A DNA stretch of 51,865 nucleotides from a virus: positions 1 through 51,865 of IMG/VR virus record IMGVR_UViG_3300036770_005931, one strand, 5' to 3'. Each line of letters begins with the position of its first letter. Within the stretch, counting starts at the first letter, position 1. A program made the position numbers and the translations under genes. Positions 912 to 49,779 of the stretch are shown piece by piece. A model generated the notes under the pieces. The model was not told the DNA's origin and did not search any database. It worked only from the letters and a program-made list of their open reading frames with translations.

Positions 912-961
912 CTCATGTGCGAAAAAAGCCTCTGACCAGGGACGATGCCCGTCGCCAGCGA

Positions 962-1218: not shown

Positions 1219-1230
1219 ACTTGCTGACGA

Positions 1231-1285: not shown

Positions 1286-1301
1286 TGCCTGACAGGTGTG
1301 A

Positions 1302-4724: not shown

Positions 4725-4793
4725 GAGAGCCTTTTTTAAAAAAATTTTTGGGCGCCTGTGGTGGTCGGATTTTTAAGAACGCTTCGTCGCTTT

Positions 4794-24837: not shown

Positions 24838-24839
24838 CG

Positions 24840-24918
24840 TACCCGGCCAAGGAATCGAACCTTCGCAGAGCGGACCTGTATATAAGACAGGCTGGGGCAA
24901 CCAGCCCCACGACCGGGC
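24840..24918 (-). tRNA. tRNA-like gene, anticodon UAU (Ile), atypical
   Basis: The minus strand folds as a cloverleaf: acceptor GCCCGGT with GCCGGGT, a D arm with GG in the loop, an anticodon arm CCTGT/ACAGG with loop CTTATAT (anticodon UAU, reading AUA), and a T arm with GGTTCGATTCC. Oddities are C at position 8 where U is usual, a missing A14, one G-G mismatch in the T stem and a 10-nt variable region. There is no encoded CCA. It may be a divergent phage tRNA or a decayed one. Confidence 0.55.
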
Positions 24919-24923
24919 GAGAT

Positions 24924-25499
24924 TTACGCTCGGCAGTATATTGCGAATTGCCAAAACCATTTAGCCACAACGGGCCATTTAATTTTTGTCTCAGGGTCCA
25001 GCCACCACTGCGAGTGAGTGTCATTCGGAATGCGCTCGCAATAGTCCTGCAATTCCGTAAAACCGCAATTTAGCAAAATATCCCACACCCGCTGGTGATG
25101 ACAGTTCCAGTGATGCGTGGCACCATCCCAGAATTCGGACTCCCTACCTGGCTGGAAATTGTGCTCCTGATGCTCCATGGTTGATAGCACCATTTCCCAC
25201 GGTTCTTTGTCCTCACGCCATCGCTGAATTGTCTTGAGGACATCTGGACCAACTACCAGTATCGGCGCACCAGGTTTAGCAATGCGACGCATATCAAGAA
25301 GAAAACTAGGAACAGCCCGCCAGTCAATATGTTCAATGACATGCCCGAGATAAATGGCGTCAAAATAATCAACAGGAAAAGGATACGGTTGATTCGGCTC
25401 AACGAGTACGTCGGGCCGAGTCGTTTCGCTTTCCCAAACATCGCAATTTACCCAGCCCTTTGCATAGTGCGTTCCGCATCCGGCGTTCAATAAATTCAC
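24924..25499 (-). CDS. SAM-dependent methyltransferase (191 aa)
   Basis: Starts MNLLNAGCGTH, with the glycine-rich SAM motif at residues 5-10, an acidic residue after the second strand (NCDVWE), and DAIYLGHVIEHI as motif II, typical of class I methyltransferases acting on small molecules or glycans. It is the last gene of a four-gene cluster and its start overlaps the oxygenase stop by 4 nt. The substrate is unknown. Confidence 0.85.
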   Translation of the reverse strand: MNLLNAGCGTHYAKGWVNCDVWESETTRPDVLVEPNQPYPFPVDYFDAIYLGHVIEHIDWRAVPSFLLDMRRIAKPGAPILVVGPDVLKTIQRWREDKEPWEMVLSTMEHQEHNFQPGRESEFWDGATHHWNCHHQRVWDILLNCGFTELQDYCERIPNDTHSQWWLDPETKIKWPVVAKWFWQFAIYCRA

Positions 25500-26308
25500 T
25501 TCTTTTCCCCGATACCGTAGTACATGTCAACATTTGTGGAGATAGGGAAGTAGTATCCACCCTGTCCATTTCTTTTTGCCTTTGGCATATCTCCACGATG
25601 CTTGATACCTGAATAATGAGCAATAAGACTCCGCCTCTCCATCCCCGGTACGTTTGGCCGAGACCCACGGTGCATGAGCCGTCCGTGCCATACGAGAACA
25701 TCCCCACGCGAGGGGAGATGGTTGACGACATTGTTTCCGCGCTCCACTATTTCCTTCTCGAAAAGAGGCGTCAAGATTCGCTCTGAGAACTTTGGCCAGC
25801 GATGGTCTCGTTCTTCTGGCTCTAGGGCATTGAGAATCTTCTCATTAGATACCTGGGGCCAACGATGGGAGCCTGGCACATACTGAAAGGGGCCCGAATC
25901 TGGATGGATGTCGGCAAAGGCAATCCAGACGGCTGCGTAATAGTCGCCAACATGCGGAGGGTTCAGGTAGGAGTCCTGGTGCCAGTCGCGTTCCGTTGAG
26001 ACCCAGCCGGTCAGGTTCAAATGAAGACCGGCTGGCTCGCCAATCAGTTCCTCTAGCAGTGACGCCAGAGGGGCATACGTCAAAATGTCAAGAAGTTCCC
26101 GGTGCCTCATGTAGGGAATTGGGTCAGGCCAACCCATGGGGCGATTCTGGCCCTCGGGTCCGTTGACGGCTAACCAAAGTTCCTCATAGGACTCCATCAG
26201 GTCATGGGGCAGGAAGTTTCTGAGAATGACAACGCCGTCGTCATTCCAGTCACGTGGCCCCACGGGAGGGGCGGGCTCAGTCAAATCTTCGTATGAATAT
26301 TGTGTCAT
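25496..26308 (-). CDS. Phytanoyl-CoA-dioxygenase-like Fe(II)/2OG oxygenase (270 aa)
   Basis: ATG at 26308 is chosen because it overlaps the previous stop (ATGA). H110-x-D112 (DWHQDSYL) and H213 (LMHRGSRPN) form the iron triad; R225 or R226 would bind 2-oxoglutarate. The FQYVPGSHRW block between them is typical of the PhyH family, which hydroxylates lipids, secondary metabolites and sugars. It lies between two methyltransferase genes and downstream of a glycosyltransferase, so a shared substrate such as a glycan is plausible. Confidence 0.88.
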   Translation of the reverse strand: MTQYSYEDLTEPAPPVGPRDWNDDGVVILRNFLPHDLMESYEELWLAVNGPEGQNRPMGWPDPIPYMRHRELLDILTYAPLASLLEELIGEPAGLHLNLTGWVSTERDWHQDSYLNPPHVGDYYAAVWIAFADIHPDSGPFQYVPGSHRWPQVSNEKILNALEPEERDHRWPKFSERILTPLFEKEIVERGNNVVNHLPSRGDVLVWHGRLMHRGSRPNVPGMERRSLIAHYSGIKHRGDMPKAKRNGQGGYYFPISTNVDMYYGIGEKK

Positions 26309-26808
26309 TTGATGCCTACAGTTCTCAAATCTGCACCTTGCGTAGAAACGTTGTATTGAGAGAATACACGCATTGCTCGCTTCAGTTCCCAAGCCCCAAC
26401 ATTGTCATAATACTCCCAATCGCGTATAGGTTTTTCATCAATTGCCGAGTGGGGCGCTCGACCTTCGCCTGCCATCGTGGCTATGAAAAGCCCGCCTATC
26501 CGAAGGTGTTTATGGGCGTTCAATATGATGTGACGCCAATGCGGTGTGTGTTCAAAAACCTCAGCACAGACTGCAACATCAAATTCAGTTGTTGATTTGT
26601 AAGTAGACGCATCGCATACCAAATCAACGCCAGGGCCCGGCTGCATATCAACCCCCAGATAGTGTTCTGCGTGTTGTTGAAGAACACTACGAACGGAGCC
26701 GTTGATATCAAGGCTTCCAAATTCAAGAATTTTCAATTTTTTTTCGGGTTGAGTGACTTTCCAGGCGTAAAACTGAGTACTGACATAATCAAGAACGGCT
26801 TGATGCAC
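26305..26808 (-). CDS. SAM-dependent methyltransferase (167 aa)
   Basis: GTG at 26808 is favoured because GGAAGAG lies before it; an ATG at 26847 would overlap the upstream gene by 59 nt. LKILEFGSLDINGS is SAM motif I, YLGVDMQPGPGVD motif II, and FDVAVCAEVFEH the following acidic strand. It is a class I methyltransferase of the small-molecule or glycan type. Its coupling to the oxygenase and glycosyltransferase genes suggests they modify the same product. Confidence 0.82.
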   Translation of the reverse strand: MHQAVLDYVSTQFYAWKVTQPEKKLKILEFGSLDINGSVRSVLQQHAEHYLGVDMQPGPGVDLVCDASTYKSTTEFDVAVCAEVFEHTPHWRHIILNAHKHLRIGGLFIATMAGEGRAPHSAIDEKPIRDWEYYDNVGAWELKRAMRVFSQYNVSTQGADLRTVGIK

Positions 26809-28516
26809 GGCTCTTCCACTTTTCGTCAAAGATGACTTTGTCAACATTCACGATTTGCTCAAAGTTGTTCGGTGGGTCATTTTTGGTTGTCCAGGAATCG
26901 TTTCCCCATGACTTGGTCAGGCCGCTGACAACTGTCCGCCTATTCATTGTCGTCAGCGTCCAGAGCGCAAGGTCGTCGTCGCCAAAATACCAAGTCATCC
27001 GGTCGTCAAAACGCCATTTCTGTGCCAAATCCGAACTGAGCATCATTGACGCGCCCGAAATGCCCGTTTTCCCATACCAGCCGTTTGCGCCCTGCACATC
27101 CTGGAAAAGTCCGGGAACTAATCGGTTATCGTAATTTGGACAAATCAATCCGATAGTGGGTTCATCATCAATTTGTCCTGCCATCGTCCCAATGGCGTTT
27201 TTTTCTATAATGACATCGTCATTCAAAAAACAGACATGGTTTCCCGGCTTGACACGAGCCAGCGCACTATTCCACATTTTATGTATTCCGGCCCCAGGCG
27301 GACTAACGATAACCTGGACTGTCGGCAAAGAGGCTTGTTTAATCTTTTCAAATGCATCATCGCCATCGGCAACAACATAAATTGTTTCAACGCTGGCGTC
27401 GGCGGCAGCCATTGAACAAATCTGCTGGAATCCAACCATGTTAGATTTTGTTGGAATAATTACATCCACTTTTGACTTGCCCATAGAGCGCATAATTGAC
27501 GCTACATTGCTACGAAGGCGAGTCTCGTAAGGATTGATATTGAGAGCAATTTTCGCTTGCTCAAGCGATTCTGACAACAAACCTAAATTCCATGACGCTA
27601 TTGACAGCAGGTCGTGCGGAAGTGAACCCCAGGAATCTGCCTCGCAAATATAGTCAAGAGGCTTTTCGGTGATACCGACAGCGCGTTTGCTTGCTGAGTA
27701 GCACTGCGACCAGTTATTGGATTCGTAATAATGGCGGGCAAGTTCAACCCACGGCTCTCGCCTATTAGGCGCTTCGGCACATGCTCTGAGTAGCCAGTGT
27801 TCTTTCTTGTCAGTGACTCGTGCCAGATACCTCATCGACGCAGAGCGTTCAGCGTCCCATTTTGAAATTTCCAAGTGCTTGAGAAAATGAGGGATAGCGT
27901 CTTGATACCTATTGTGGAACATGAGTTCTCGTCCAAGATAGAAAAGGTTGCGGTCTCCTTCTGGGTCTTCCTGAACGGCGAGTTCTAGAAGGGGCAAGTA
28001 TTGCGCACGTGATTTATTTGGGTCTGGATAGTGATGAACTACTACACCGCATGGCGCCTGAACTTCAACCCCATCGCAAACTAATACTTCATGGACGGGG
28101 TGTTTCCAGCGATACCCATGCCGACGATGAATATGGTCCCGGTAAAAAACGAGACCCTCGGAGCCATCCTGGTTCCATGACCACACATACTTGTATCGAG
28201 GGCGAGTTACGTTGTCTGGCAGTTGTTCTAGGTGTTCTCGCCAGCCCTCTACCAGTAATTCATCGGCATCAAGGGAGACGCACCAGTCAATGTCGTCTGG
28301 CAAGAGGTCCAACGCTGCATTGCGGGCATCATCAAACCGCCAGGGGTCAATAGAGATTGACGCAGTAGTGCATCCCATTTCTTGGGCTACTTTTACTGTC
28401 CGGTCAATTGACCCTGTGTCAACAATTAGGCGATAGTCTGCATCGTGGCAAGAATTTGCCCAACGCTCAATGAATTTTTCTTCATTCTTGACAATTGTAT
28501 AGACGGCAATTCTCAT
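26789..28516 (-). CDS. Two-domain glycosyltransferase with central helical repeats (575 aa)
   Basis: The N-terminal GT-A domain (1-230) starts AVYTIVKNEEKFIERW and has the metal-binding D83-A-D85-E. A middle segment (about 190-340) has TPR-like helical repeats (YLGRELMFHNRYQDAIPHFL). The C-terminal domain (from about 350) is a second GT2-type fold: VDVIIPTKSN, then FLNDD near residue 431. Each half could transfer a sugar, so one protein may build a disaccharide. It is the first gene of the methyltransferase-oxygenase cluster. Confidence 0.85.
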   Translation of the reverse strand: MRIAVYTIVKNEEKFIERWANSCHDADYRLIVDTGSIDRTVKVAQEMGCTTASISIDPWRFDDARNAALDLLPDDIDWCVSLDADELLVEGWREHLEQLPDNVTRPRYKYVWSWNQDGSEGLVFYRDHIHRRHGYRWKHPVHEVLVCDGVEVQAPCGVVVHHYPDPNKSRAQYLPLLELAVQEDPEGDRNLFYLGRELMFHNRYQDAIPHFLKHLEISKWDAERSASMRYLARVTDKKEHWLLRACAEAPNRREPWVELARHYYESNNWSQCYSASKRAVGITEKPLDYICEADSWGSLPHDLLSIASWNLGLLSESLEQAKIALNINPYETRLRSNVASIMRSMGKSKVDVIIPTKSNMVGFQQICSMAAADASVETIYVVADGDDAFEKIKQASLPTVQVIVSPPGAGIHKMWNSALARVKPGNHVCFLNDDVIIEKNAIGTMAGQIDDEPTIGLICPNYDNRLVPGLFQDVQGANGWYGKTGISGASMMLSSDLAQKWRFDDRMTWYFGDDDLALWTLTTMNRRTVVSGLTKSWGNDSWTTKNDPPNNFEQIVNVDKVIFDEKWKSRASSRS

Positions 28517-28724: not shown

Positions 28725-29098
28725 TATTCCTCGCTTTCCGGAATTTCAACCCATGAACCAGAGTTTTCATCCCACTGATAGGACTTCCCGTCCTCTGGCA
28801 TTGGTAACGGAGGATGCCAGTCATAGTTATTATCAAGATGCCACGACGGGTATGGGCTGACAGGGTTGTAGAACAGGTTGGCGTCTGGCCGATAGATGTC
28901 TCCGATGGCAGCGTACTTCTTGCGGAAGTTGCCGTTGTAGGAGGTTTGTACCCACGGGCCTGGGCCTGCAACAGATTCGCATACAGCGATTCCGCGTGCT
29001 TCTTGTTCAATACCGTTGTCGTCCACCAGGTCAGCGTTTGAGATGACAATGACCTGGGTGACAATGTTGTTTTCGTCAAGTTGTGCGAAGTGTGCCAT
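28724..29098 (-). CDS. MAHFAQLD-type phage tail accessory protein (124 aa)
   Basis: Starts MAHFAQLDENNIVTQVIVIS at the ATG overlapping the previous stop (TGATG at 29098). The N-terminal 65 residues closely resemble those of the protein at 33213-34226 (MAHFAELDSTNHVVRVISV), and both have a WVQTS...FR block. It ends with a WDENSGSWVEI motif like the fibre-tip domain next door. Such proteins accompany fibre genes in environmental phages; their precise role is unknown. Confidence 0.75.
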   Translation of the reverse strand: MAHFAQLDENNIVTQVIVISNADLVDDNGIEQEARGIAVCESVAGPGPWVQTSYNGNFRKKYAAIGDIYRPDANLFYNPVSPYPSWHLDNNYDWHPPLPMPEDGKSYQWDENSGSWVEIPESEE

Positions 29099-29997
29099 CA
29101 GAAGCGCTTCCATCTGATAATGACACGGCCAGAACCGCCGAGACTCAATACAGTCCCAGTAGGAGGCGGGTTAGTTGAACCAGCACCGCCACCCCCACCT
29201 GTGTTCGTCGTCCCATTTAGTGCGGGAGTAGGGCCGCCTTCGGCTCTACCGCCCCCTCCTGGGCCTCCTGCACCGCCCGGTCCTCCGCCTCCTCCTCCCG
29301 CTAAAGTAAGCGGAGAACCCGTGATGGTTGTCGTAGCGCCAGCACCGCCAGCACCACCACCACCAGAGCCGGTCGGACTAGCGTTACCCCCGTTAGAACC
29401 GACTGCACCAGCACCACCACCTCCACCAGCACCAGAAATATAAGGGAAAGCGGGAAACGCAGGATTAGGGTAGGTACCAAAGCCAGAGTTGCCGCCGTTA
29501 TTTCCTTGTGGCGGTGATGTTGGTGGCGTGTTGCCAAGACCGCCACTACCGCCACCTGAACCACCAGGACTGCCACTATCTCCACCAGCGGCAGAAGTGA
29601 TAGGGCCAAATTGGGATGGTGAAGCCGCCCCACCGACAGTCACCGTGTACTGGCCAGGTCCGACTGAGGTCAGGGTTCCTGCCCGATAACCGCCAGCACC
29701 ACCACCACCCATAGCAGAAACCAGGGGGAGCGGAGAAGAACCGCCACCACCACCGACAACGACATATTCTATGTCAGTTGCATCACCAACAACAGTTACC
29801 GTTGCTGAAGCCGTGAAATCAACACCGATGTATGTTGTTGCGCCACCCGGTGCAGGAGAGGACGCAAAGAAACCTGTTCCTGCAGGATACGGTGACCACG
29901 TAAGGAGAAATGTTGGTCCGCCAGGACTATTACCCCGCTGACCAAAATCAGCAACGGGCTGACCCGAACGAGTCCTATCACCATATCGAGCGCTCAT
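29098..29997 (-). CDS. Glycine-rich receptor-binding tail protein (299 aa)
   Basis: A short N-terminal domain, then EYVVVGGGGG followed by long Gly/Ala/Pro-rich runs (for example GGGGGAGAVGSNGG). This resembles glycine-rich adhesin tips such as gp38 of T-even phages, whose polyglycine sheets present variable loops to the receptor. A second protein of this type is encoded at 34232-34960. GAGGTTG lies before the start. Confidence 0.75.
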   Translation of the reverse strand: MSARYGDRTRSGQPVADFGQRGNSPGGPTFLLTWSPYPAGTGFFASSPAPGGATTYIGVDFTASATVTVVGDATDIEYVVVGGGGGSSPLPLVSAMGGGGAGGYRAGTLTSVGPGQYTVTVGGAASPSQFGPITSAAGGDSGSPGGSGGGSGGLGNTPPTSPPQGNNGGNSGFGTYPNPAFPAFPYISGAGGGGGAGAVGSNGGNASPTGSGGGGAGGAGATTTITGSPLTLAGGGGGGPGGAGGPGGGGRAEGGPTPALNGTTNTGGGGGAGSTNPPPTGTVLSLGGSGRVIIRWKRF

Positions 29998-30385: not shown

Positions 30386-30604
30386 TTAAAGAAAAGACCC
30401 AAGTCCGATAAGAAGGTCAGCATCCTGATTATACAATACTGGAAGTGCCTCTGCGTAGGTAAGAGAGTTCCAGTCGGTCGTTCCGTCACCGATTTTGAAC
30501 TTCCTTGTGTCGCTTTCCAGAGCAAATTCGCCTTCGGCTAGTACGGGGTTAGCGGCGGTCCATTCAGAGGATGTGCCTCGTCTGAATTGAATTCTAACTG
30601 ACAT
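30386..30604 (-). CDS. Mtd-N-like fibre domain protein, copy 1 (72 aa)
   Basis: IQFRRGTSSEWTAANP, then LAEGEFALESDT, then FKIGDGTTDWNSL is the small beta domain common at the start of phage fibres (major-tropism-determinant N-terminal type). Here it stands alone as a gene, next to two paralogues. The ATG directly follows the preceding stop codon. Confidence 0.8.
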   Translation of the reverse strand: MSVRIQFRRGTSSEWTAANPVLAEGEFALESDTRKFKIGDGTTDWNSLTYAEALPVLYNQDADLLIGLGSFL

Positions 30605-30802
30605 TTAGACTCCCATCAGTAGAAATGGACTAAATACATCGGGTGGGTAAAAATAAGGCAAATCATTCCAATTGCTGGACCCGTCACCAATTTTAAAGTT
30701 GTATGTATCAAGTTCAAGGCCTATTTCTCCTTGGGCCAGAATGGGGTTGGCTGTTGACCAACTACTTGACGAACCATTGCGAAGTCTGATTTGAGTAGCC
30801 AT
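30605..30802 (-). CDS. Mtd-N-like fibre domain protein, copy 2 (65 aa)
   Basis: Same domain as its neighbour (IRLRNGSSSSWSTANP, FKIGDGSSNWNDLPY) but with RNGS in place of RRGT and a hydrophobic tail (FSPFLLMGV). Start shares TGATG with copy 3. Confidence 0.8.
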   Translation of the reverse strand: MATQIRLRNGSSSSWSTANPILAQGEIGLELDTYNFKIGDGSSNWNDLPYFYPPDVFSPFLLMGV

Positions 30803-30993
30803 CAGATTAGCAGAAGACTGGGGAAATAAATGCCCTCGTAATAGGGCAAATCATTCCATCTTTTTGAACCATCACCGACTTTAAAGGATAAACCATCTAA
30901 GTTTAATGCTAATTCTCCACGCCCTAGTAGAGGATTTTTAATAGTCCAGTTTTCGGGGGTATCTCGTCTCATCTGAAAAACTGTATCGCTCAC
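30802..30993 (-). CDS. Mtd-N-like fibre domain protein, copy 3 (63 aa)
   Basis: Third paralogue (FQMRRDTPENWTIKNP, FKVGDGSKRWNDLPY) ending in a short hydrophobic tail (YFPSLLLI). GTG start overlaps the previous stop by 4 nt. The three copies probably arose by tandem duplication and diverged. Confidence 0.8.
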   Translation of the reverse strand: MSDTVFQMRRDTPENWTIKNPLLGRGELALNLDGLSFKVGDGSKRWNDLPYYEGIYFPSLLLI

Positions 30994-31181
30994 ACCCCAC
31001 CCCCATCGACTGAAGCAACTCCCCCGTAGACGCTAGAGGCTGTTCCACCGTCAAGATTTAGTACAAAAGGGTTTGAATATGGAACAAGAATCCAGACACC
31101 ATTGGAGTAGCGCCAGGACTTATCACCAACGGTGAAAACATCATTTTCGGACGGGCTATCAGGGAAATCTATGGCAGCCAT
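30990..31181 (-). CDS. Small tail-fibre-associated protein (63 aa)
   Basis: IDFPDSPSENDVFTVGDKSW followed by WILVPY is a relative of the domain encoded at 28536-28724. The C-terminus is Gly/Val/Ser-rich. It is the first gene of a minus-strand fibre row that starts opposite the plus-strand P450 unit. Confidence 0.7.
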   Translation of the reverse strand: MAAIDFPDSPSENDVFTVGDKSWRYSNGVWILVPYSNPFVLNLDGGTASSVYGGVASVDGGGV

Positions 31182-31227
31182 GCCTCTATATTACTTGTAA
31201 TTTCTGCTTGATTTAGTAACTGGGCGC

Positions 31228-31255
31228 TTGACGGCAATTTCCACACTGCTAGTGT
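31228..31255 (+). promoter_or_regulatory. Promoter of the P450-glycosyltransferase unit
   Basis: TTGACG (31228-31233) and TAGTGT (31250-31255) with a 16-bp spacer, 22 bp upstream of the P450 start codon; AAAGGAGG follows as ribosome binding site. Confidence 0.65.
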
Positions 31256-31277
31256 TCTCTGCGTCAAAGGAGGCATC

Positions 31278-32549
31278 ATGGCATTCAAATATAGGCCATA
31301 CAGCGAAGAATTTCAGCGAGACCCTCACGCTACTTATTCATACATGAGGGAGTATGAGCCGGTTCACTGGTCAAATCCCGACTTGGTTTATGTGACCAGG
31401 TATGAGCATGTTATCCAGACGCTGAGGAACCCCAAATCAAGCGTGCAATTTATGGATTATTGCGAGCGGGGAGCATCCGAATATGTCAAGGGAATCCGTG
31501 AACTTCGCGAGAAGGACCCGACTATTGGCAGTTTTACCACCATGCTCCGAAGCGATAATCCCGCCCATGACAGGATGAAGCATCTAACGATTCCTCATTT
31601 CTCCCATCAAAAAATTAATGAACTTGCTGGCCACATTGAAACAATAGTCCAAAAGCGAATCAATTCCCTGAGTAATCATTCAAGAGTAAATATCGCTCAG
31701 GAAATGTCTCGCCACATTCCAGTTGACACGATTTGCCACATTCTTGGTCTTCCCGATGAGGATAAGGAGATGTTAACCAATTGGGCGCATTCCTTGACTC
31801 TCATTGTTGAGCCGCTTCAGTCGTCAACTGATGGAATAGAGCGTGTTCTGGAGATGCTTCCAGACACAATCATGTACTTGGTCAATCGATTGGAGGAGAG
31901 GCGCTCCAATCCAAGAGAGAACGATGTTGTCACTGATTTGGTTCTAGGCGAGGTTGACGGCAAGCCTCTTCCTTATGAAGAAATCGTGTCTACCGTTGGC
32001 CTTCTCTTTATGGCAGGAATTGAGACCACACTGTTTTTTATGGCCAATGCTCTACATACATTGACCGTGAATAAAAAGGCGCGCAGGGAATTTATTGACA
32101 TTACTAGCCAGGCACGTTCGCAGGGTGTGGCATTTTATTCCGACAAAAAATGCATGAACGCCATTGATGAATTGCTCCGATATTCCGGCTCAGTTTGGAT
32201 TACTGGTCGAGCCAACCTAGAAGATTATGTGTACGAGGTTGACAATGGAAAAGTGACCGTACCAAAGGGTTCTTTGATTACGACAGTGATGGCGTCAGCA
32301 AACAGGGACCCAAGAATTTTTAAGAATCCTGAGGAGATTGATTTTGCGCGCGATAATGCCCATAGGCAACTCACTTTTAGTGCTGGCGTTCACTATTGCC
32401 TTGGGTCACATCTGGCTCGTCTTGAATCACTAATTTTGCTTGACAGGTTCTTCACTCAGTTCCCGGAGGTTGAACTACTTGAAGAGCCGGTATGGCGAAC
32501 ACGCCTGACATTCCGAGGAATTGAAGACCTCATAGTAAAATTGGCCTAG
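31278..32549 (+). CDS. Cytochrome P450 (423 aa)
   Basis: A heme monooxygenase of the soluble bacterial class. The I-helix oxygen-activation motif A246-G-I-E249-T-T251, the K-helix E298-L-L-R301 and the heme-ligand loop FSAGVHYC374LG are all intact, as is an HxxxR-type segment (HDRMKH) near residue 100. Length is normal for the family and no membrane anchor is present. It needs electrons from a ferredoxin or similar partner, none of which is visible here, so a host partner is likely. It is encoded on the plus strand inside a minus-strand fibre region and is coupled to a glycosyltransferase gene (TAGTG). The substrate is unknown. Confidence 0.95.
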   Translation: MAFKYRPYSEEFQRDPHATYSYMREYEPVHWSNPDLVYVTRYEHVIQTLRNPKSSVQFMDYCERGASEYVKGIRELREKDPTIGSFTTMLRSDNPAHDRMKHLTIPHFSHQKINELAGHIETIVQKRINSLSNHSRVNIAQEMSRHIPVDTICHILGLPDEDKEMLTNWAHSLTLIVEPLQSSTDGIERVLEMLPDTIMYLVNRLEERRSNPRENDVVTDLVLGEVDGKPLPYEEIVSTVGLLFMAGIETTLFFMANALHTLTVNKKARREFIDITSQARSQGVAFYSDKKCMNAIDELLRYSGSVWITGRANLEDYVYEVDNGKVTVPKGSLITTVMASANRDPRIFKNPEEIDFARDNAHRQLTFSAGVHYCLGSHLARLESLILLDRFFTQFPEVELLEEPVWRTRLTFRGIEDLIVKLA

Positions 32550-33256
32550 TGGCAATCCCTGTTCTCATAGTTCCAACGCTGTATCACTATGATTTATTGC
32601 AAAATATGCTCAACTCCGTGGATTGGCCTGTTGAACATGTAGTTGTGATAGACAATGGCGGAAAACTTGAGGCATGCAAATGTTCCAATGCCGAACAGGT
32701 CAGCATCGTTTCTCTGCCTTCAAATTTAGGTGTGGCCGGAGCATGGAACCTGGGAATCAAACTGACTCCATTCGCCCCTTGGTGGCTCATTTGCAATGAT
32801 GATATTCAGTGGATTCCTGGAAAATTAGAGAAATTTGAGCAATACATAGCACCAAGAACCATTGTTGCTGATTGGCGTCCGCTGACTGCTTTTTGTGGCT
32901 TTGCCATTGATGAGCAGGTTGTTCAGGATGTTGGACTATTTGATGAGTACTACTACCCAGGGTGTGGAGAAGAAGTCAATTACTGGACAAGAGCGCAGAA
33001 ACAGGGAATTCAAGCAATAGATATTCCTGACGCTTATGAATTGCAGGGCGCTGCTGGCCAAACTCGGCAAGTCCTCCAAGAAAAGTATCCTCGCACATCT
33101 GGAATTACCTCAGCAAATCTGGCAGAGGGTATTGCTTCCCGTGGTTATGTCCGGAGTTGGGACTTGGAGAGGCGGCGAGTTTCTGACCCTACCGTCCGAT
33201 ACAAACTGCCACCTATTGTGGGTATGATTCCGGGAGTGAATCCAGATTCACCGTAA
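32549..33256 (+). CDS. GT2-type glycosyltransferase (235 aa)
   Basis: GTG at 32549 overlaps the P450 stop codon. The N-terminus (IPVLIVPTLYHYDLLQNML), the SNLGVAGAWNLGI block and N83-D84-D85 (LICNDDIQW) define a family-2 GT-A fold, similar to the C-terminal domain of the protein at 26789-28516. YYPGCGEEVNYWTR would be the acceptor-side region. It probably adds a sugar to the same product as the P450 or to a virion fibre. Its end overlaps the convergent gene by 44 bp. Confidence 0.85.
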   Translation: MAIPVLIVPTLYHYDLLQNMLNSVDWPVEHVVVIDNGGKLEACKCSNAEQVSIVSLPSNLGVAGAWNLGIKLTPFAPWWLICNDDIQWIPGKLEKFEQYIAPRTIVADWRPLTAFCGFAIDEQVVQDVGLFDEYYYPGCGEEVNYWTRAQKQGIQAIDIPDAYELQGAAGQTRQVLQEKYPRTSGITSANLAEGIASRGYVRSWDLERRRVSDPTVRYKLPPIVGMIPGVNPDSP

Positions 33257-34226
33257 GGGCATCACCAACATTTAATTCCCGATACTTGAGGCGTGTTTCT
33301 TGATACCAGGCTTCAAAAAGCGGAGGCATTGGCGGGTCTTCTAGAACTTCAAAAGAAGTTCCCTTGAAGGGGTACTCTCCTTTAAGGTATCGCTCAACAG
33401 CCTGTGGCTCAACCTGCTCTAGGAGTTCCTCACGTACTTCAATGGGCATTTGAAGTTCTTGCAATACTTTATGACAGGTGACGGCTGCTGGTTCGTTGTT
33501 TCCAAACTCGGTGTGGGCAAGCGCCCATTCAATAATCAGGCGGAACAGTTCATGTGGGGTTCTGGCGGCTGTCTGTGGGTGCGAGTTCAGCGCATCCGAC
33601 GCAACCTCAATATTTAAAATTTCCCATGTCACCTTAAGAATGAGTCCAAGGGGAGTCAGGTCAATTTCTTTTCGCAGGGAATGAACTGCGGGAACGATAA
33701 TTGTTTGACCCTCAACGCGCGCTCCGGTCGCTATGATAGTTCTGTTGTATCCATACATAACTTCCTCAAATGTCGGATACATAAAGTCTTTGGTAGTGCA
33801 GGCAAGATACTGAAACTCGTTTTCTGGGTCTTTGTAAACCGCAGGACAGAATCGATACGACTTGGTGTTTCTGATGTAATACGAAAGATACGCAAGTTCT
33901 TCGTGAGTGAACGGCAAGCCCGTGTACTCGTTGACATTGTCTGGCCGAACCCAAGTGAAGTCATCACCAAGTTCATAATACGGACTTGGCTTTTTTTCAA
34001 CGAATGCGTCTTTGTCCGGAAGGTACAGCATTCCTTCTTGAGCAAAATTCACTCTGAATTTTTTATCAATTGATGTCTGAACCCATCGACCACCTAGAAG
34101 ATTGACGCAATATTCAATACCTTTTTGCTCCGATTCATTACCCCGTTCGTCCAATAGTTCATTGTCATAAACCGAAATGACGCGAACGACATGGTTGGTG
34201 CTATCTAATTCCGCAAAGTGGGCCAT
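33213..34226 (-). CDS. MAHFAELD-type tail accessory protein, long form (337 aa)
   Basis: The N-terminal 65 residues match the 124-aa protein at 28724-29098. The remaining part, starting around residue 95, is a mixed domain with no motif I recognise; its last 40 residues (MPPLFEAWYQETRLKYRELNVGDALTVN) are strand-rich. Its leader (TAGGATAAGCGCC before ATG) is identical to that of the AT-hook gene at 23492. Likely virion- or fibre-assembly-related. Confidence 0.7.
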   Translation of the reverse strand: MAHFAELDSTNHVVRVISVYDNELLDERGNESEQKGIEYCVNLLGGRWVQTSIDKKFRVNFAQEGMLYLPDKDAFVEKKPSPYYELGDDFTWVRPDNVNEYTGLPFTHEELAYLSYYIRNTKSYRFCPAVYKDPENEFQYLACTTKDFMYPTFEEVMYGYNRTIIATGARVEGQTIIVPAVHSLRKEIDLTPLGLILKVTWEILNIEVASDALNSHPQTAARTPHELFRLIIEWALAHTEFGNNEPAAVTCHKVLQELQMPIEVREELLEQVEPQAVERYLKGEYPFKGTSFEVLEDPPMPPLFEAWYQETRLKYRELNVGDALTVNLDSLPESYPQ

Positions 34227-34231: not shown

Positions 34232-34960
34232 TTATCCTACTGCACGCGGAATATGGATGATAACGACTCCAGCAGCGCCAGCACCACCAGAAGATGAGCC
34301 TCCAGGGGGACCTGGGGCATTACCCCCACCCCCACCCGAGCCAGTGTTCGCACTGCCAGCGACACCTGGATTGCCAGCAGGACCGCCCCCTCCTGGGCCA
34401 CCCGCGCCACCGGGTCCTCCCCCTCCGCCTCCACCATAGGTTCCAGCAACTGTTGGGGTTCCCGCTCCACCGCTCGTACCACTTCCGGGACCGGAAGAAC
34501 CAGCGCCTCCCGTGCCAGGTGAAGTGTTTGTGTTTCCTGGCGCTCCAGCAGCGCTAAAAAGCAATGTAGTGGGAGGGAAGTAAATTTCTGAAGCGCTGTT
34601 TGCTGCTCCAACAACTACCGAATATGTCCCGGGGGCTAAAGTGGTAGAGGGTTGGTAGTTGACTACGCCAGATTTCCCACCAACACCTTGCGTCTGATTA
34701 AAACTTCCAGGAATAGGTCCACCTTTTGGACCCGGTCGTGGAAATGGGGAACTTACTGAAGATGAGCCACCGGTTCCTGGAGCGCCCCCACCAACGACGA
34801 CGAGCGAAGCATTAATCGGCAATGCCCCATAAATAGTAAAAGGCGCACTTGCCGTAAATGTAAAATATCTTCCAGTTGGTGTAGGTGTTACGGGTACGCT
34901 GGGCGGAGCCTCAAGGCTCGCTGCGTTAACGCCTAAAATTAGATGGTGAATTCCGCTCAT
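34232..34960 (-). CDS. Glycine-rich receptor-binding tail protein, second copy (242 aa)
   Basis: ATG at 34960 (MSGIHHLILGVNAAS) is chosen because the longer frame overlaps the fibre gene; the stop of that gene is 11 nt upstream. A short beta domain (YFTFTASAPFTIYG) leads to SLVVVGGGAPG and Gly/Pro/Ala-rich runs, like the protein at 29098-29997. It directly follows the collagen-like fibre, so it may cap that fibre. Confidence 0.7.
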   Translation of the reverse strand: MSGIHHLILGVNAASLEAPPSVPVTPTPTGRYFTFTASAPFTIYGALPINASLVVVGGGAPGTGGSSSVSSPFPRPGPKGGPIPGSFNQTQGVGGKSGVVNYQPSTTLAPGTYSVVVGAANSASEIYFPPTTLLFSAAGAPGNTNTSPGTGGAGSSGPGSGTSGGAGTPTVAGTYGGGGGGGPGGAGGPGGGGPAGNPGVAGSANTGSGGGGGNAPGPPGGSSSGGAGAAGVVIIHIPRAVG

Positions 34961-34971
34961 GATTTTATGAA

Positions 34972-40848
<5,877 letters not shown>

Positions 40849-40872
40849 TCAACTCACGGGTGGTCGGTTGTC

Positions 40873-40894
40873 AAAATCAGCCCCTCAAGGCTGA
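40873..40894 (-). terminator. Intrinsic terminator between two fibre genes
   Basis: Minus-strand TCAGCC and GGCTGA form a 6-bp stem with a 6-nt loop, followed by TTTT (40873-40876). It lies 4 bp after the stop of the gene at 40899-42236. Confidence 0.65.
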
Positions 40895-40898
40895 AACA

Positions 40899-42236
40899 TT
40901 AGCCTGTGACAACCACCCGATAGGCGTTATTGCCTGGAGCCGTAGCGAAGGAGACTGTCACGATATTCGTGCTGGTTCGAAGGGTATCTGCGATAACCGT
41001 ATCGTAGGTTGCTGTATCGTACACCTGAACAACAACATCACGAGTGTCAAAGTTATGAGTAATCGTGAATGAAGTGTCGGCGGCATTTCCAACTGTTTGC
41101 GAAGCAACCCGAGCAAGTACTGGAGTGCTCGTGCTGAAACCCGAGGCAGTAGCACCAAGGTTTGTACGAGCGTCAGAGGCGGAGGAGGCTCCAGTACCAC
41201 CATGGGCTACGCCAACATCGGTGGCTTCCCAGGTGCCAGTTCCGATGGTTCCAAGGGTCGTGATGCTTGATTGGCCGACATAGGTTGAGGCAATGTCAAT
41301 GCTGTCAGCGTTGGCGACAATCCGGTCAGCAGTGCCGACAACATCAATGGTGTTGCCAGTCTTAGTTAGACCATTTCCAGCGATACTTTGACCGGCGGCT
41401 GAGAACTGAACGAAAGTCAGGTTTGTCGTGCCAAGGGTGATTGTTCCATCGGTGGTCAGCACCCAGCCAGAGTCGGCCCAGTTAGTGCCCTGCTCCACGA
41501 AAACGAAAAGACCAGGCGTGACTTCGTCATTACTGTCTGCGTCGGTGGCTCGGGTCAATACCCATGGGTTGCTCTCGTCGCCAACCGCAGTAACAGTATA
41601 AATACCGTTGTAAGGAGCATTTGTTGAAGTTTCGTTCTTGACCAGAATACGAATACCAACATCCGTAGGGTCTGTGAGTGTTACTCCATCAATAACTAGT
41701 CCGCCATTGGCGTTGGCAGTTAGAACACCTGCAGCGTGGGTAAATGAACTCAGCGCGGCATTAGTTGCCAATCGTGCAGATTGCTTGACATCCAGGCCAG
41801 AGCGAGCCGCATCCACATAAGCCTTGTTGGCTGCGTCAAGTTCAGCGGATGGAGCAGTGACCTGGAGGCGTCCATTAGAATCGCGCTTGGCGAGAGTTCC
41901 ATTAGTATTTGACGAAGTAGCGGAGTTAAGGTCTGTGTAAAAAGCCGTTGAGAGTAAACCTGCCTCGTCACCAGAGGCCAAGTTTGGGGTAATGGTAATA
42001 GCACCACCAGATTCACTGATGGTGAGAGCGCCATCATGGTCGCCAGCCGAGGCTACGCTCTTGACAAGGACCTTCCAGGCTGAACCATCATAATACTTGA
42101 TGCAATCAAGGTCAGTCCGGTAAATGAGTCGACCCTCAAAGTTGCCCGTGCTTGGGTCAGCAGCAACAGCCTCAAAGCGACCATTGAGAAGTTGATTGCC
42201 ATTGAGGTCAAGATTTGTTACAAACTTTGTTGCCAT
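40899..42236 (-). CDS. Tail fibre protein (445 aa)
   Basis: The N-terminus (TNLDLNGNQLLNGRFE) and the LIYRTDLDCIKYYDGSAW block are typical of phage fibre bases, as are APSAELDAANKAYVD and the GVAHGGTGASSASDARTNLGA motif near residue 350, a common fibre linker. The last 90 residues form a beta-rich tip. AAAGGACAGGGAAG lies before the start. Confidence 0.88.
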   Translation of the reverse strand: MATKFVTNLDLNGNQLLNGRFEAVAADPSTGNFEGRLIYRTDLDCIKYYDGSAWKVLVKSVASAGDHDGALTISESGGAITITPNLASGDEAGLLSTAFYTDLNSATSSNTNGTLAKRDSNGRLQVTAPSAELDAANKAYVDAARSGLDVKQSARLATNAALSSFTHAAGVLTANANGGLVIDGVTLTDPTDVGIRILVKNETSTNAPYNGIYTVTAVGDESNPWVLTRATDADSNDEVTPGLFVFVEQGTNWADSGWVLTTDGTITLGTTNLTFVQFSAAGQSIAGNGLTKTGNTIDVVGTADRIVANADSIDIASTYVGQSSITTLGTIGTGTWEATDVGVAHGGTGASSASDARTNLGATASGFSTSTPVLARVASQTVGNAADTSFTITHNFDTRDVVVQVYDTATYDTVIADTLRTSTNIVTVSFATAPGNNAYRVVVTG

Positions 42237-42249
42237 TCTTCCCTGTCCT

Positions 42250-42738
42250 TTAGGTCAGATATGCGAAACCAGAAAATGGCGAGGTGAACTCAACCACTAC
42301 CTGTGACGTACTTACATATAATACTTCACCAATAACCACAGTGGACGCAGAATCAACAACAGTTACGGATGGATAGCCACCTAATGTATGGTTTATTGTC
42401 CATGTATCAGACGGCGAAGCCTGAGTATGGATTTGCCGTCTGGTCCCACCTGGAATGAAAATTGGTTCTGATGGCCAAACTCCATTAGCCTTAGGCCCGT
42501 AAATAAAAACATTGTCAATATTTACATAGAAGTCGCCATCTCGCCCCACGGAAGATGTTGGTGCGCCACTTCCTGACTCAAGGCCATATCCACGTGGCCC
42601 AGGAGCGCCCAGGAGTTGAACAAAGACATCAGTAGTATCTTCGTCAACGGTAACAATATTGCGCAGTTGGTCTGGCGCATTTTCAATATTGACGCTTGTG
42701 ACCTCTTGGATGACTGAGACATTGACCGGGTCAGTCAC
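42250..42738 (-). CDS. Phage structural protein, probably fibre- or baseplate-associated (162 aa)
   Basis: GTG start at 42738 overlaps the preceding gene by 8 nt. Composition is beta-rich, with GAPGPRGYG and SVGRDGDFYVN linker-like motifs and a C-terminal TWTINHTLGGYPSVTVVD domain that is common in phage appendage proteins. It probably attaches a fibre to the baseplate. Confidence 0.7.
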   Translation of the reverse strand: MTDPVNVSVIQEVTSVNIENAPDQLRNIVTVDEDTTDVFVQLLGAPGPRGYGLESGSGAPTSSVGRDGDFYVNIDNVFIYGPKANGVWPSEPIFIPGGTRRQIHTQASPSDTWTINHTLGGYPSVTVVDSASTVVIGEVLYVSTSQVVVEFTSPFSGFAYLT

Positions 42739-43081
42739 GGGTCACCTCAGGTTCTAGCCTGATTTTGCCTTTAAGGACTCGAAAAACACGGTCCGAGTCA
42801 TCAATAATTTCAATATCATAGACACCGTCTGTTGAGATGTTTTCAGTGTCTGACGAGTCAATTATTAATGTAATTGTCCCCAGGTTTCCGCCGAGGACAA
42901 TTCTTCCATTTTCCGTAGTCAACTCAAGAACGACAACTTCTGAGTCAATTTCCGTACGAATTTGCATACGGGCAGTATGGTTTGTCAAATCATACAGCGA
43001 GTCGTCAGGGTTTTTGATAGTAACAACCCGTTCAAAATGCGCCCCCTGGTCAATTGTGAAGTTATAGTTTCCAGCAAGCAC
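42731..43081 (-). CDS. Conserved phage baseplate/appendage protein (116 aa)
   Basis: GTG at 43081 is preferred, with GGAGGT 5 nt upstream, to a TTG at 43093. The pattern YNFTIDQGAHFERVVTIK, TARMQIRTE, GTITLIID and VLKGKIRLEPEVTRD recurs in a small beta-sandwich family of phage structural modules. Its function is not established. It is the first gene of a three-gene appendage set. Confidence 0.7.
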   Translation of the reverse strand: MLAGNYNFTIDQGAHFERVVTIKNPDDSLYDLTNHTARMQIRTEIDSEVVVLELTTENGRIVLGGNLGTITLIIDSSDTENISTDGVYDIEIIDDSDRVFRVLKGKIRLEPEVTRD

Positions 43082-43136
43082 GACGACCTCCAACGCTGTC
43101 TAAAGTTTACTCCTTGAAGACTCTTACCAAGGTGAT

Positions 43137-43177
43137 AAAAGCAAATGGAGCGGTCAGGAGGAAACCGCTCCATTTGC
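43137..43177 (-). terminator. Intrinsic terminator after the holin-like gene
   Basis: GCAAATGGAGCGGT (43141-43154) and ACCGCTCCATTTGC (43164-43177) form a 14-bp stem; on the minus strand TTTT follows. It lies 18 bp past the stop at 43196. Confidence 0.85.
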
Positions 43178-43195
43178 CCTCCTTGTCGGGGAGAC

Positions 43196-43435
43196 TCAGC
43201 CAGCCGGTGTGTTTTCCTTGGCCTTTTTCTTTGCGTATCGCTTGGTTTGAGCATCAAGGAAACTTGCCAACTCTGGGTCGCCAATCTTTGTAGAGGCCCA
43301 CGCAAGCGCGCCCGCGACAACCGGCATACAGAGTGCTATGAATTCGGGGTCAAGATTTGCCTTGGTGGCAAGATAGAGCAAGATGCCCATCACTCCACCC
43401 TTGGCTGCCTGGTCCGTCATTTGCATTTTGTTCAT
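43196..43435 (-). CDS. Holin-like small membrane protein (79 aa)
   Basis: Two hydrophobic stretches (GGVMGILLYLATKA, and EFIALCMPVVAGALAWAS) are separated by a short polar turn, and the C-terminus is strongly basic (KRYAKKKAKE). That is the layout of small class II holins. No endolysin gene is next to it, so another membrane role is possible. It is coupled to the preceding gene by ATGA. Confidence 0.6.
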   Translation of the reverse strand: MNKMQMTDQAAKGGVMGILLYLATKANLDPEFIALCMPVVAGALAWASTKIGDPELASFLDAQTKRYAKKKAKENTPAG

Positions 43436-43695
43436 GAGTTTTCTTCTCCATCATTTTCTTCCCAGTCATTCCAGGAATCCGAATCTGCTATTTCTCGCGT
43501 AATCATGATTTCCTTGGCGCATTCAAGCATGCCGGTACCTAGCCAGGTTGTCATGCCGTCAGATGTTCCCATATGGAGGTCGCGAGAGTCGTTGTCAACC
43601 ACTTCTGCAATAATTATCCAATTGGTAATCATTTGCTCGGGAAATGCCTCGGCAATAAGACCCTGAAAGTCCTTGTCATCACCTGGCTTTGACAT
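43432..43695 (-). CDS. Hypothetical acidic protein (87 aa)
   Basis: A small protein with a strand-rich middle (NWIIIAEVVDND) and an acidic end (NDWEENDGEENS). Coupled to the holin-like gene. No family is recognised. Confidence 0.6.
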   Translation of the reverse strand: MSKPGDDKDFQGLIAEAFPEQMITNWIIIAEVVDNDSRDLHMGTSDGMTTWLGTGMLECAKEIMITREIADSDSWNDWEENDGEENS

Positions 43696-43719
43696 AAAGC
43701 AAGTTTACCATGCGCCCCA

Positions 43720-45165
43720 TCAGAGGCTATCAACACATTCATGGGTGACTATGAACCCCATTGGCTTTACTTTCCGCAGTTCGGTTATCAGTAGTGGCGA
43801 CTGCGTGCCGGTAATTCCACTTGGGGTTTCGGATGTAAGAGTCTTAACGAATATTTGCCAAGGAAACTGGATGGGGTCAAAGAACACATCAATAGTTTGA
43901 GTTCCCGAAAGAAGATATCGAATACCGTCACGAAGACTACGACAGGTTCCAGCATCGTGACCAGTTCTGCGGTCTGTAACGAGTTGGCGGCGCGTTGGAA
44001 TGAAGTTTGAGTCAGTGATATCAAATGATTCAATTTCAATCCAGTCAGAATCAACTAATGTGACTGTTCCCACTGAACCAGATGCCGACACTCCAGACTG
44101 GGACCACTCAAGGGTATTTGTGCCGGTATCAACATTAGTGAGTTCAAATTGACCGTTGAAGGTTGAAGCCCCCTCAACAGTTACAGTATCCCCAATGGAA
44201 AATTCAGTTGGTGAGGCACTGACGACGGCAGAAACATTTCCACTTCCATCTCTGGTTACGGAGGAAATCGTGTAAGTGATATCCGGCTCGGGGTCAATAT
44301 CCTCATGGATTCCTTCCCATGTGGTCGGAAGGTTTCCCCACGGAGTCGTACCAGCGGTTAGTCGCTCAAGTTTAATGCCAACAAACTGAGCAAGCCAGGG
44401 CATATAGTCTGGGTCAACTGCATCAATATCAACTAAAGTGCTTTTTGTTGCGTCGTCATTTTCTATGTATCCTTCAGAAATATCACGATATCTAAAGTCA
44501 AGAGCCTGACTAAATGCCCGACCAGCAAAGACAAGGCCCACATCCATAAACCTAGTCATAGGATATTGAGGATTTTGCTGCTCGGAATCTGCATCAATAA
44601 GAAACCGAGGCATTCTACTAATGGTTTCCCTGAGGAATAAATTGTCAGCAAATCCAAAAGCATTTTTGACAACGGGATGGGCAATCAAAACATTGACCGC
44701 TCCAAATTGCGAGCGAAATAGTATGGTTGCCCTGAATGTTTGGTTTGTAACACTCGTAGGAACGACTAGCGAATCAGAACGAATAACTGTCCATGTAGAT
44801 GCAGGCACCTCATAATAGTTACTAGTAATTGATGCTGGCGAAGAGTTTTGTATGCGTATGGCTACTTCAATAGGTGACGTACAGAAGACATTCACCGTTG
44901 AATTGATTGAATCTCTGATAAATTCTGGACCAACAACAAATGAGTCGTGAGTTACGGAAAACTCAGTATTAGGACTCCCAGCCGAAAGTGCCTGCACGCT
45001 AAGAGCGTGATAAACACCCTTGAAGAGACGTGTACTTTCTACGGTTAGGCTGGCATTGGACCCGGTCCATGAACCAGTGTTGGGCTGAAAAAGGTAGTCT
45101 TCGTCACCCAAAAAGTTAACATACGGCGCATCAAGGCGCTGTAGCGCTTCTCTGCTCGTTGCCAT
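43720..45165 (-). CDS. Baseplate wedge protein, gpI-like, with inserted beta domain (481 aa)
   Basis: DAVDPDYMPWLAQFVGIKL (near residue 250) and the block TRRQLVTDRRTGHDAGTCRSLRDGIRYLL resemble the P2 gpI tail-protein family, which links the J-type wedge to the baseplate. A roughly 80-residue beta domain (YTISSVTRDGSGNVSAVVSA) is inserted between these blocks, and the N-terminal 200 residues form another beta domain. Its position right after the J-like gene fits. Confidence 0.75.
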   Translation of the reverse strand: MATSREALQRLDAPYVNFLGDEDYLFQPNTGSWTGSNASLTVESTRLFKGVYHALSVQALSAGSPNTEFSVTHDSFVVGPEFIRDSINSTVNVFCTSPIEVAIRIQNSSPASITSNYYEVPASTWTVIRSDSLVVPTSVTNQTFRATILFRSQFGAVNVLIAHPVVKNAFGFADNLFLRETISRMPRFLIDADSEQQNPQYPMTRFMDVGLVFAGRAFSQALDFRYRDISEGYIENDDATKSTLVDIDAVDPDYMPWLAQFVGIKLERLTAGTTPWGNLPTTWEGIHEDIDPEPDITYTISSVTRDGSGNVSAVVSASPTEFSIGDTVTVEGASTFNGQFELTNVDTGTNTLEWSQSGVSASGSVGTVTLVDSDWIEIESFDITDSNFIPTRRQLVTDRRTGHDAGTCRSLRDGIRYLLSGTQTIDVFFDPIQFPWQIFVKTLTSETPSGITGTQSPLLITELRKVKPMGFIVTHECVDSL

Positions 45166-45167
45166 GA

Positions 45168-46697
45168 CTATACGCTCGCTACCGTAACTTCACTGCTTGG
45201 AAGTGTTCCCTTGAAGACAAATGCAATGTCGCCGTTGTCTTCTTCTGTTGCGATTGCTTCGTCAAGAGAGGTCATTGTCAAAGTTTCTACATAGTCCACA
45301 CCGTCAATTTGCGACACTTGGGATATCAGGGCATTCTTTCGAATAAGCGTTGTGAATGGATATTGCGACGGGCTGACATACGCTGTGAGGAAGTCATCTA
45401 CTGCGGTTCGCACCTCAAGGGTTGAATATCCAGGTACTATGGCGATTTCAACACCAATTTCAACCGGGGCAATAATCACATCACTCAAATAGAAAGAAAG
45501 ACCCGCAACACAGCGACTTCTAATCTCCTGTTCAACAGCCGCTTTTTCTGTCGGTGTTAGGCTTGCACCCGTGTTGGTTGACATGAAGACCGTTACACAT
45601 CCACCGACATCGTCTGCGTTGAATGCAACCTGGTCAAGAAATTCAAGTTTGGCTTCCTGGTCTGGATAGTCAACTTGGGCTGTTTCTGTGCCGTCACCGT
45701 AGTCATAGGCAACATATGGACCATCGGTGAACTGGTCTTGGATTCCGCCAGTCAGTGCCCAAATACCATCGTAGTCAGGCTTTGAGGTGTCCTTGACGCG
45801 AACCGTTGTAAAAACAGTTTCCGTATCGCCGAATGGGGTTGAACCCTCTAGGACATTCTCAATGACTGCACTACCGCCCGTGGAACTGAACGTCCTGAAA
45901 TATGTACTTGCGCCAATATTGACGGGGGCGCATGATGCATTTACTAGGTTCGTGCCACCATCAAAGACTGTCGTCGTCACGAGGAATTGCTGAAGGCGAG
46001 TTAGGTCATAGGCTTTTACACGATAGGCACTTTCGTAGTTTGAAAGAATAAAGTTGGTTAATTGGTCTGCATTGGCTAGTGAACGACTCAAACTAGCCAA
46101 ATACGTGACAGCCCTATCAAAGAAAGTATCATCAGACTCACTGTTGCTTCCCTGAACAAAGGCCCCTTCAAATGTTGCATCAAACAGACGGTTAATTGGG
46201 GTCAGAATTGTCAGGGCAGTGCCATCCGAAACAACTGGCTTTTCACCCGCTTCAACGGCAGCAATTTGTACGGGGTCCGACTGGGATTCTCCCTCTGGGA
46301 TGCTCACGGAGGATGTGGTTGCGTAGATGTGCGTTACAACGCCATCAGCAGTTGTCTCGGTAAATGAGACCTGCGTTCCAGCCGGAATAAAAAGCCCATT
46401 GGTATCGATTGATGTAAAAATGACCGAGCCAGACGCAAATGTTGCCTCAGCGCGGTAAAAGCCCATAAGGCGCAGAATGCCTTCCATGAGGCCGTCCGGG
46501 AGTCGGTTGACTGAACCAGTGACAAGACCGGCAATATAGGACATTGCCTCCAGCATGGCGTCTTCAACCGTGCCAGGACGCGGGTCAAACTCCGGCAACG
46601 CAACAAGCGCGTAATCTCGCGCCAGGTTGTAAATCTCAATTGGCTGAAGGTCATTGACGGTCAGGTCAATGTATTCACGGAAATCGGGCGATGCCAT
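45168..46697 (-). CDS. Baseplate J-like protein (509 aa)
   Basis: The arrangement LPEFDPRPGTVEDAMLEAMSYIAG, then FIPAGTQVSFTE, then a central PINRLFDATFEGAFVQGSNSESDDTFFDRAV and the C-terminal LTPTEKAAVEQEIRSR block are hallmarks of the baseplate J family (P2 gpJ, T4 gp6). It builds the baseplate wedge. It is followed by gpI and preceded by a gp25-like gene, the usual contractile-tail order. Confidence 0.92.
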   Translation of the reverse strand: MASPDFREYIDLTVNDLQPIEIYNLARDYALVALPEFDPRPGTVEDAMLEAMSYIAGLVTGSVNRLPDGLMEGILRLMGFYRAEATFASGSVIFTSIDTNGLFIPAGTQVSFTETTADGVVTHIYATTSSVSIPEGESQSDPVQIAAVEAGEKPVVSDGTALTILTPINRLFDATFEGAFVQGSNSESDDTFFDRAVTYLASLSRSLANADQLTNFILSNYESAYRVKAYDLTRLQQFLVTTTVFDGGTNLVNASCAPVNIGASTYFRTFSSTGGSAVIENVLEGSTPFGDTETVFTTVRVKDTSKPDYDGIWALTGGIQDQFTDGPYVAYDYGDGTETAQVDYPDQEAKLEFLDQVAFNADDVGGCVTVFMSTNTGASLTPTEKAAVEQEIRSRCVAGLSFYLSDVIIAPVEIGVEIAIVPGYSTLEVRTAVDDFLTAYVSPSQYPFTTLIRKNALISQVSQIDGVDYVETLTMTSLDEAIATEEDNGDIAFVFKGTLPSSEVTVASV

Positions 46698-46997
46698 TTA
46701 TTCATTCCTTTGACTAAAAGCAAGATTGACCCGAACTCGACCATATTCTTGTAGTTCAATTTCTGCTGAGTCAATAATTATTTCAGGGATAAATGCCCCA
46801 GCGGTGAAAGCCAAGTCACGAGTCAAGGAGTCATCAAAAGTTGGGTCCTCAACACCAAAATCCGGATTAAGGGGTAATTCACCAGGCAGAATCTGCAATG
46901 ACATTGCTAGTAGATGTGCATAAAAGTCATCCGTGCCGTCAACAAATTTCTCAACCTGCCCATTCAGGAAGCGCATGGGAAATTTGAACGTATCCAT
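46698..46997 (-). CDS. gp25/gpW-like baseplate protein (99 aa)
   Basis: LLAMSLQILPGELPLNPDFGVEDPTFDD and the closing RVRVNLAFSQRNE fit the gp25-like wedge family (T4 gp25, P2 gpW), the most conserved component of contractile baseplates. Its stop is adjacent to the start of the J-like gene. Confidence 0.85.
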   Translation of the reverse strand: MDTFKFPMRFLNGQVEKFVDGTDDFYAHLLAMSLQILPGELPLNPDFGVEDPTFDDSLTRDLAFTAGAFIPEIIIDSAEIELQEYGRVRVNLAFSQRNE

Positions 46998-47024
46998 AGG
47001 TCTATTTTGCCATCTTTCGGTGAT

Positions 47025-47354: not shown

Positions 47355-47362
47355 GGCTTCTC

Positions 47363-49060: not shown

Positions 49061-49072
49061 GGTAATCTACGC

Positions 49073-49777: not shown

Positions 49778-49779
49778 TT

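Follow-up and report, generated by a model that had tools for sequence, protein, structure and literature searches.

Why would a phage carry a cytochrome P450 coupled to a glycosyltransferase (GT) among its tail genes? We investigated this question for a 51,865-bp IMG/VR virus record (IMGVR_UViG_3300036770_005931; the window, meaning the whole stretch of DNA analyzed), which is classed as linear and is a partial contig, a fragment of a myovirus. Its baseplate protein was nearest to those of Arthrobacter, Gordonia and Brevibacterium phages, and its primase/helicase to those of Arthrobacter and other actinobacteriophages; judged from these protein comparisons, the host is therefore likely actinobacterial. 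The tail genes of the window lie on the minus strand, from 51.8 down to 28.5 kb. The two enzyme genes were first picked out in a sequence-only reading, and both open reading frames match the positions given there exactly. As that reading described, the pair runs against the surrounding genes, since its neighbors on either side (30990–31181 and 33213–34226) are both on the minus strand. The region is laid out as follows.

29098–29997 (−): glycine-rich tail protein that may act as an adhesin
30386–31181 (−): four small tail-fiber-type proteins (Mtd_N-like and FPDSP type)
31182–31277 (+): divergent gap of 96 bp with, by eye, a weak TTGACG-N16-TAGTGT promoter-like pair and a AAAGGAGG ribosome-binding site
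31278–32549 (+): cytochrome P450, 423 aa, with AGIETT, ELLR and FSAGVHYCLG, the last holding the heme ligand Cys374 (Pfam, motifs, structural model)
32549–33256 (+): GT2 (GT-A type) glycosyltransferase, 235 aa, with NDD and GEEVNYWTR motifs (Pfam, PHROG)
33213–34226 (−): tail-region protein with a phrog_7759 N-terminal domain, converging on the GT with a 44-bp overlap
34232–35104 (−): second glycine-rich tail protein, without a match in the PHROG search
34972–40842 (−): collagen-like tail fiber, 1956 aa, with GPTGPTG repeats

By sequence and predicted fold, the P450 is real, and it is divergent and probably functional. Its reading frame is open, with 16–36 stops in each of the other five frames, and it matched Pfam PF00067 (E 8.2e-24, over the cut-off) and PksS (2e-42). 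The AGxETT, ExxR and Cys-ligand motifs are kept, as had been claimed, at residues 246–251 (AGIETT), 298–301 (ELLR) and 367–376 (FSAGVHYCLG), and E298, R301, R311, F367, G370, H372, C374 and G376 were invariant in an alignment of 48 P450s. The AlphaFold model made from this alignment, which replaced an earlier shallow model (pLDDT 70.6), reached a pLDDT of 92.2 and a pTM of 0.92. A structure-based family check returned the P450 fold, with PksS (4yzr) as the top Foldseek match (best PDB E 1.1e-25), and VIA-align ranked acyl-ACP-bound P450BioI first (3ejb/3ejd/3eje; Z 50.0, 1.7 Å over 375 residues), hinting at acyl substrates as a lead rather than a proof. PksS and P450BioI, the closest solved sequence and structure, respectively, are cellular biosynthetic enzymes, unlike the phage-borne P450, which is 24–29% identical to them and 21–29% identical to the PDB chains listed. 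A named family in CYP nomenclature needs more than 40% identity, and the best full-length cellular match to the window P450 had 34%. PHROGs held no match for the P450, and a peptide-pattern search of viral and genome contigs found no close relatives. The enzyme is of the single-domain bacterial type without a fused reductase, and a ferredoxin motif scan of the window, a partial contig, gave one spurious ORF only and no redox partner; host redox partners are therefore presumed. PMC9405906 likewise proposes that viral P450s use host redox partners and, citing Lamb et al. 2019, states that none had been reported in the viral and phage genomes then described.

The GT matched PF00535 (2.1e-6, 28.2 bits, cut-off 23.3) and phrog_29879 (4.7e-26). 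Its NDD and GEEVNYW motifs are present, but invariance across four homologues was limited to Y145, R148 and the final D of NDD (D85). Coupling of the two genes was confirmed: the P450 stop and the GT start overlap by one base in TAGTG at 32547–32551. Searching IMG/VR with an alignment of four relatives, we obtained 378 confirmed phage-contig loci of this GT family. Head-tail adaptors were the immediate downstream neighbors in 15 of 59 loci scanned, others being methyltransferases, GTs and HNH endonucleases, and no P450 occurred in any of 80 loci fetched. Since this large phage GT family is normally found without a P450, we regard the GT as the resident gene and the P450 as the rarer addition; by the same count, joint action of the two is not conserved. 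The phrog_29879-type GT2 of Pontimonas phage phiPsal1 (gene 012; 34% identity, 90% coverage) sits in the structural module, between major capsid and neck genes, and has a group I GT and a methyltransferase, but no P450, as neighbors. This combination of a GT with transferase partners in a structural module is that of a phage virion-glycosylation module. A precedent comes from actinophages, in which capsid and tail tube proteins are modified by GTs and an O-methyltransferase (Freeman 2023, cited in PMC11600133).

We compared the junctions of the insert with those of related phages, as the sequence-only reading had proposed. The P450 was absent from all four relatives (G001–G004), so it varies between them. 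Window positions 34972–51846 are syntenic with G001 and G002 (42–81% protein identity), and the ribonucleotide reductase of G004 is 64% identical to that of the window. G004 has the same junction, with a glycine-rich tail protein, a phrog_7759 protein and a GT on the opposite strand (45–48% identical); it lacks the P450 and instead has a second GT2 beside the GT. Next to this, and divergent from it, come a probable 2OG-Fe oxygenase that matches PF13640, a second probable one that has no Pfam match, and a DegT aminotransferase. The GC content (0.458) and GC3 (0.474) of the P450 are within the phage range. The GT/tail junction is thus old and the P450 a variable but ameliorated addition, given the shared junction and the ordinary base composition. 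The proposal of a moron-type insert is borne out by the opposite strand and the absence from relatives but not by atypical base composition, and a recent foreign insertion is contradicted by this phage-like composition. The P450 was said to have its own promoter: the weak hexamer pair seen by eye and the strong Shine-Dalgarno sequence in the divergent gap are in its favor, whereas a consensus scanner found no promoter on the plus strand. Terminators and promoters found by scan were at or below shuffle expectation, and no convincing direct or inverted repeats were found at the insert borders. Elsewhere in the window (1–1500), the first kilobase has a GC content of 0.63 against about 0.48 in the remainder, and its ORFs had no Pfam match.

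A second overlapping operon (GT2, methyltransferase, PhyH, methyltransferase; 28516–24924) follows the tail genes on the same strand as these.

26789–28516 (−): GT2 and TPR protein, the first gene of this second tailoring operon
26305–26847 (−): SAM methyltransferase
25496–26392 (−): PhyH-type 2OG-Fe(II) dioxygenase with an HQD motif
24924–25499 (−): SAM methyltransferase

A tRNA-Ile gene (TAT anticodon; 24839–24918, −) lies at the end of the operon. The same phage thus encodes a 1956-aa collagen-like fiber, a PhyH oxygenase and GTs, and a further oxygenase, a TauD/CsiD-like 2OG dioxygenase, lies at 16265–17080 (−). The window also encodes a TIGR-Tas RNA-guided endonuclease (6332–7195, −; NCBIfam NF052498, 1.3e-56, over the cut-off) and a 618-aa protein (8764–10620, −) with a sub-threshold PI3/PI4-kinase match (8.3e-5).

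The rarity of P450s in phages held: apart from their absence from PHROGs, a tblastn search of 50,697 phage records matched only an unannotated fecal contig with bacterial-looking ORFs. This phage is nevertheless not the only carrier, since P450s occur in several phage-contig lineages. MT835505.1, a fecal scaffold deposited in GenBank as 'Bacteriophage sp.', was not counted as a phage P450 because its flanking ORFs look like an actinobacterial chromosome; it is possibly misfiled. A profile search of IMG/VR gave 19 P450 loci, of which four (L011, L016, L017 and L021) were left out of the phage-borne count. Phage context was direct in several of them, coming from a tail sheath (L010), an Mtd_N tail fiber (L013), a ribonucleotide reductase (L015), a ribonucleotide reductase with a major head protein (L022) and a thymidylate synthase (L027). 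In L013 the P450 is close to relatives of the small tail-fiber proteins at window 30386–31181, and in L023–L025 it is close to a relative of one of these proteins. In L024, tail-type ORFs, some of them collagen-like, share a stretch with the P450, as do a 2OG oxygenase and a tryptophan halogenase, the last (4464–5981, +; PF04820, 8.8e-103) lying between the tail-type ORFs and the P450; the L027 phage record encodes a tryptophan halogenase as well, elsewhere on the record. The reductases of L022 and L026 are 77% identical to that of the window, yet these phages have different P450s.

The P450s of L009, L010, L012/L013 and L014 group with that of the window (98/98) at 25–28% identity. All of them are surrounded by 2OG-Fe oxygenase genes, and tail genes occur on L010 and L013 and probably on L014. 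Instead of the GT2 of the window, they have 2OG oxygenases, DUF6065 and, in the L010 and L014 clusters, a WS/DGAT-like acyltransferase as neighbors. With several 2OG-Fe oxygenases, DUF6065-like genes and a P450, the clusters of L009, L010, L013 and L014 resemble a natural-product tailoring cluster. Mycobacterium phage Adler (KF981876, 8323–9738; Lamb et al. 2019, cited in PMC9405906) likewise has a P450 in an actinobacterial phage genome, but of a different family (23% over 219 aa, E 5e-5), with Arg in place of the window's His in its heme motif FGVGERACIG, near XRE regulators and hypothetical genes, where neither a GT nor a tail gene is annotated. The CypX P450 A0A6J5NCR8 of an uncultured Caudovirales phage (BFVD) has the same fold (E 3e-22) at 20% identity. 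For comparison, of 153 cyanophages listed in a review (PMC10452541), 76 have 2OG-Fe oxygenases and 20 have halogenases, and P450s go unmentioned. Our search of the viral-survey literature found no paper naming a P450 as a phage auxiliary gene. The coupled P450/GT arrangement is unusual, and phage P450s as such are known but sparsely documented.

The nearest cellular P450s, at 30–34% identity, belong to the order that includes a lake Actinomycetota MAG (L044). Three of them (L236–L238) have a CarD-type regulator and/or a 3-hydroxyisobutyrate-dehydrogenase-like gene nearby, and two also a class-III aminotransferase. A search for the GT in 396 genomes of the phylum of this MAG, run with no positive control, gave nothing at E 1e-12. 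In the P450 tree, the grouping of the window P450 with L009, L010, L013 and L014 had UFBoot 98 and SH-aLRT 98, on long branches. Ten phage P450s needed three origins on the careful tree, and a single origin appeared in 0 of 200 bootstraps; by an AU test, a single origin is still compatible with the data (p 0.087), and neither alternative is proven.

A coupled P450 and GT among tail genes suggests that the virus decorates its own particle or the host surface. Our preferred explanation, to which we give a probability of about 0.38, is that the P450 and the GT2 act jointly as a decoration cassette in the tail region of an actinophage-like myovirus. Host ferredoxin, with a reductase, would feed electrons to a heme-active P450, which would hydroxylate or oxidize the acceptor, or else the sugar or lipid donor; the GT would then add a sugar, giving a product on a tail or capsid protein, and jointly the two enzymes would install an oxidized glycan or a glycosylated hydroxyl. 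The GT2 is the resident enzyme and, by analogy with its relatives among the structural genes of many phages, most likely has a virion protein as its sugar target late in infection. Decoration is preferred because the GT family lies among structural genes, actinophages provide a precedent and the phage has the second tailoring operon. The intact motifs and confident fold, the TAGTG coupling, the G004 junction with its oxygenase/GT2/DegT slot, and the other phage P450s that adjoin tail genes, 2OG oxygenases and, in L024, the tryptophan halogenase also count in its favor. Against it count the 0 of 80 GT loci with a P450 and the lack of a redox partner by motif scan in this partial contig. Moreover, cargo of all kinds commonly lands in tail regions, the P450BioI match hints at an acyl substrate and not at a protein or a sugar, and the P450s of L015 and L022 lie near nucleotide-metabolism genes, not tail-fiber genes.

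Nearly as likely as decoration is modification of the host envelope, in which the P450 would oxidize a lipid or acyl chain of the host and the GT would glycosylate a surface glycolipid or polymer, either changing receptors and so excluding superinfection, or aiding release. The structural matches, P450BioI followed by polyketide and sterol P450s, are consistent with this, as are matches of the GT to rhamnosyl- and galactofuranosyl-transferase models, which fell below cut-off, and the cellular P450 homologues, chromosomal genes beside an SDR, a 3-hydroxyisobutyrate-dehydrogenase-like gene and a class-III aminotransferase. However, the Z values report fold, not substrate, and the structural-gene context of the GT family favors decoration over an envelope change.

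A third, rather improbable option is that the pair, by hydroxylation and glycosylation, inactivates a natural product with antibacterial or anti-phage activity, or else contributes to making such a compound. Actinobacteria make anti-phage natural products, the closest characterized P450s act on polyketides and macrolides, and other phage P450s lie in the tailoring-like clusters with 2OG oxygenases, the WS/DGAT-like acyltransferase or the halogenase. Natural-product glycosylation, however, usually involves the GT1 type, whereas the window GT is a GT2 (GT-A), and no regulator or exporter was seen near the pair. A non-catalytic, P450-like activator of the adjoining GT (EryCII/DesVIII type) is very improbable despite the coupled GT and a TIGR04515 match of 1.5e-18: the match scored 67 bits against a cut-off of 343, the partner is a GT2, and such activators lose the heme Cys, which is kept here along with ExxR and AGxETT, so that the score and the retained Cys exclude TIGR04515 identity. 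We consider an assembly chimera or bacterial contamination at 31180–33260, named in the sequence-only reading as what would refute it, just as improbable as far as it could be tested: the P450 is known from a single contig and absent from the relatives, but the right junction is common to G004, the two genes share a coupled overlap, GC is phage-like, related P450s lie inside other phage contigs, and no cellular P450 above 34% identity was found over most of its length.

In the sources searched, phage P450s are documented from one isolate (Adler) and one uncultured entry. To these the window adds a divergent and intact P450 that is coupled to a GT and sits within the tail region, and the related contigs make it one case of a recurring pattern. 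Action of the pair on virions or envelopes would bring P450 oxidation into the chemistry that phages encode and provide two enzymes that can be tested together; action on metabolites would instead make the P450 an auxiliary metabolic gene of actinophages. A broader and more speculative idea, doubtful as it stands, is that phages, on actinobacteria and on other hosts alike, repeatedly gain oxidative tailoring enzymes (P450s, 2OG-Fe oxygenases and halogenases) next to their tail-fiber genes, and that these enzymes would modify the phages' own receptor-binding proteins; in such a post-translational chemistry of the virion, P450 hydroxylation would create glycosylation sites. Of more interest than the single case is how oxidative enzymes recur next to tail genes across phages, a pattern that can be tested.
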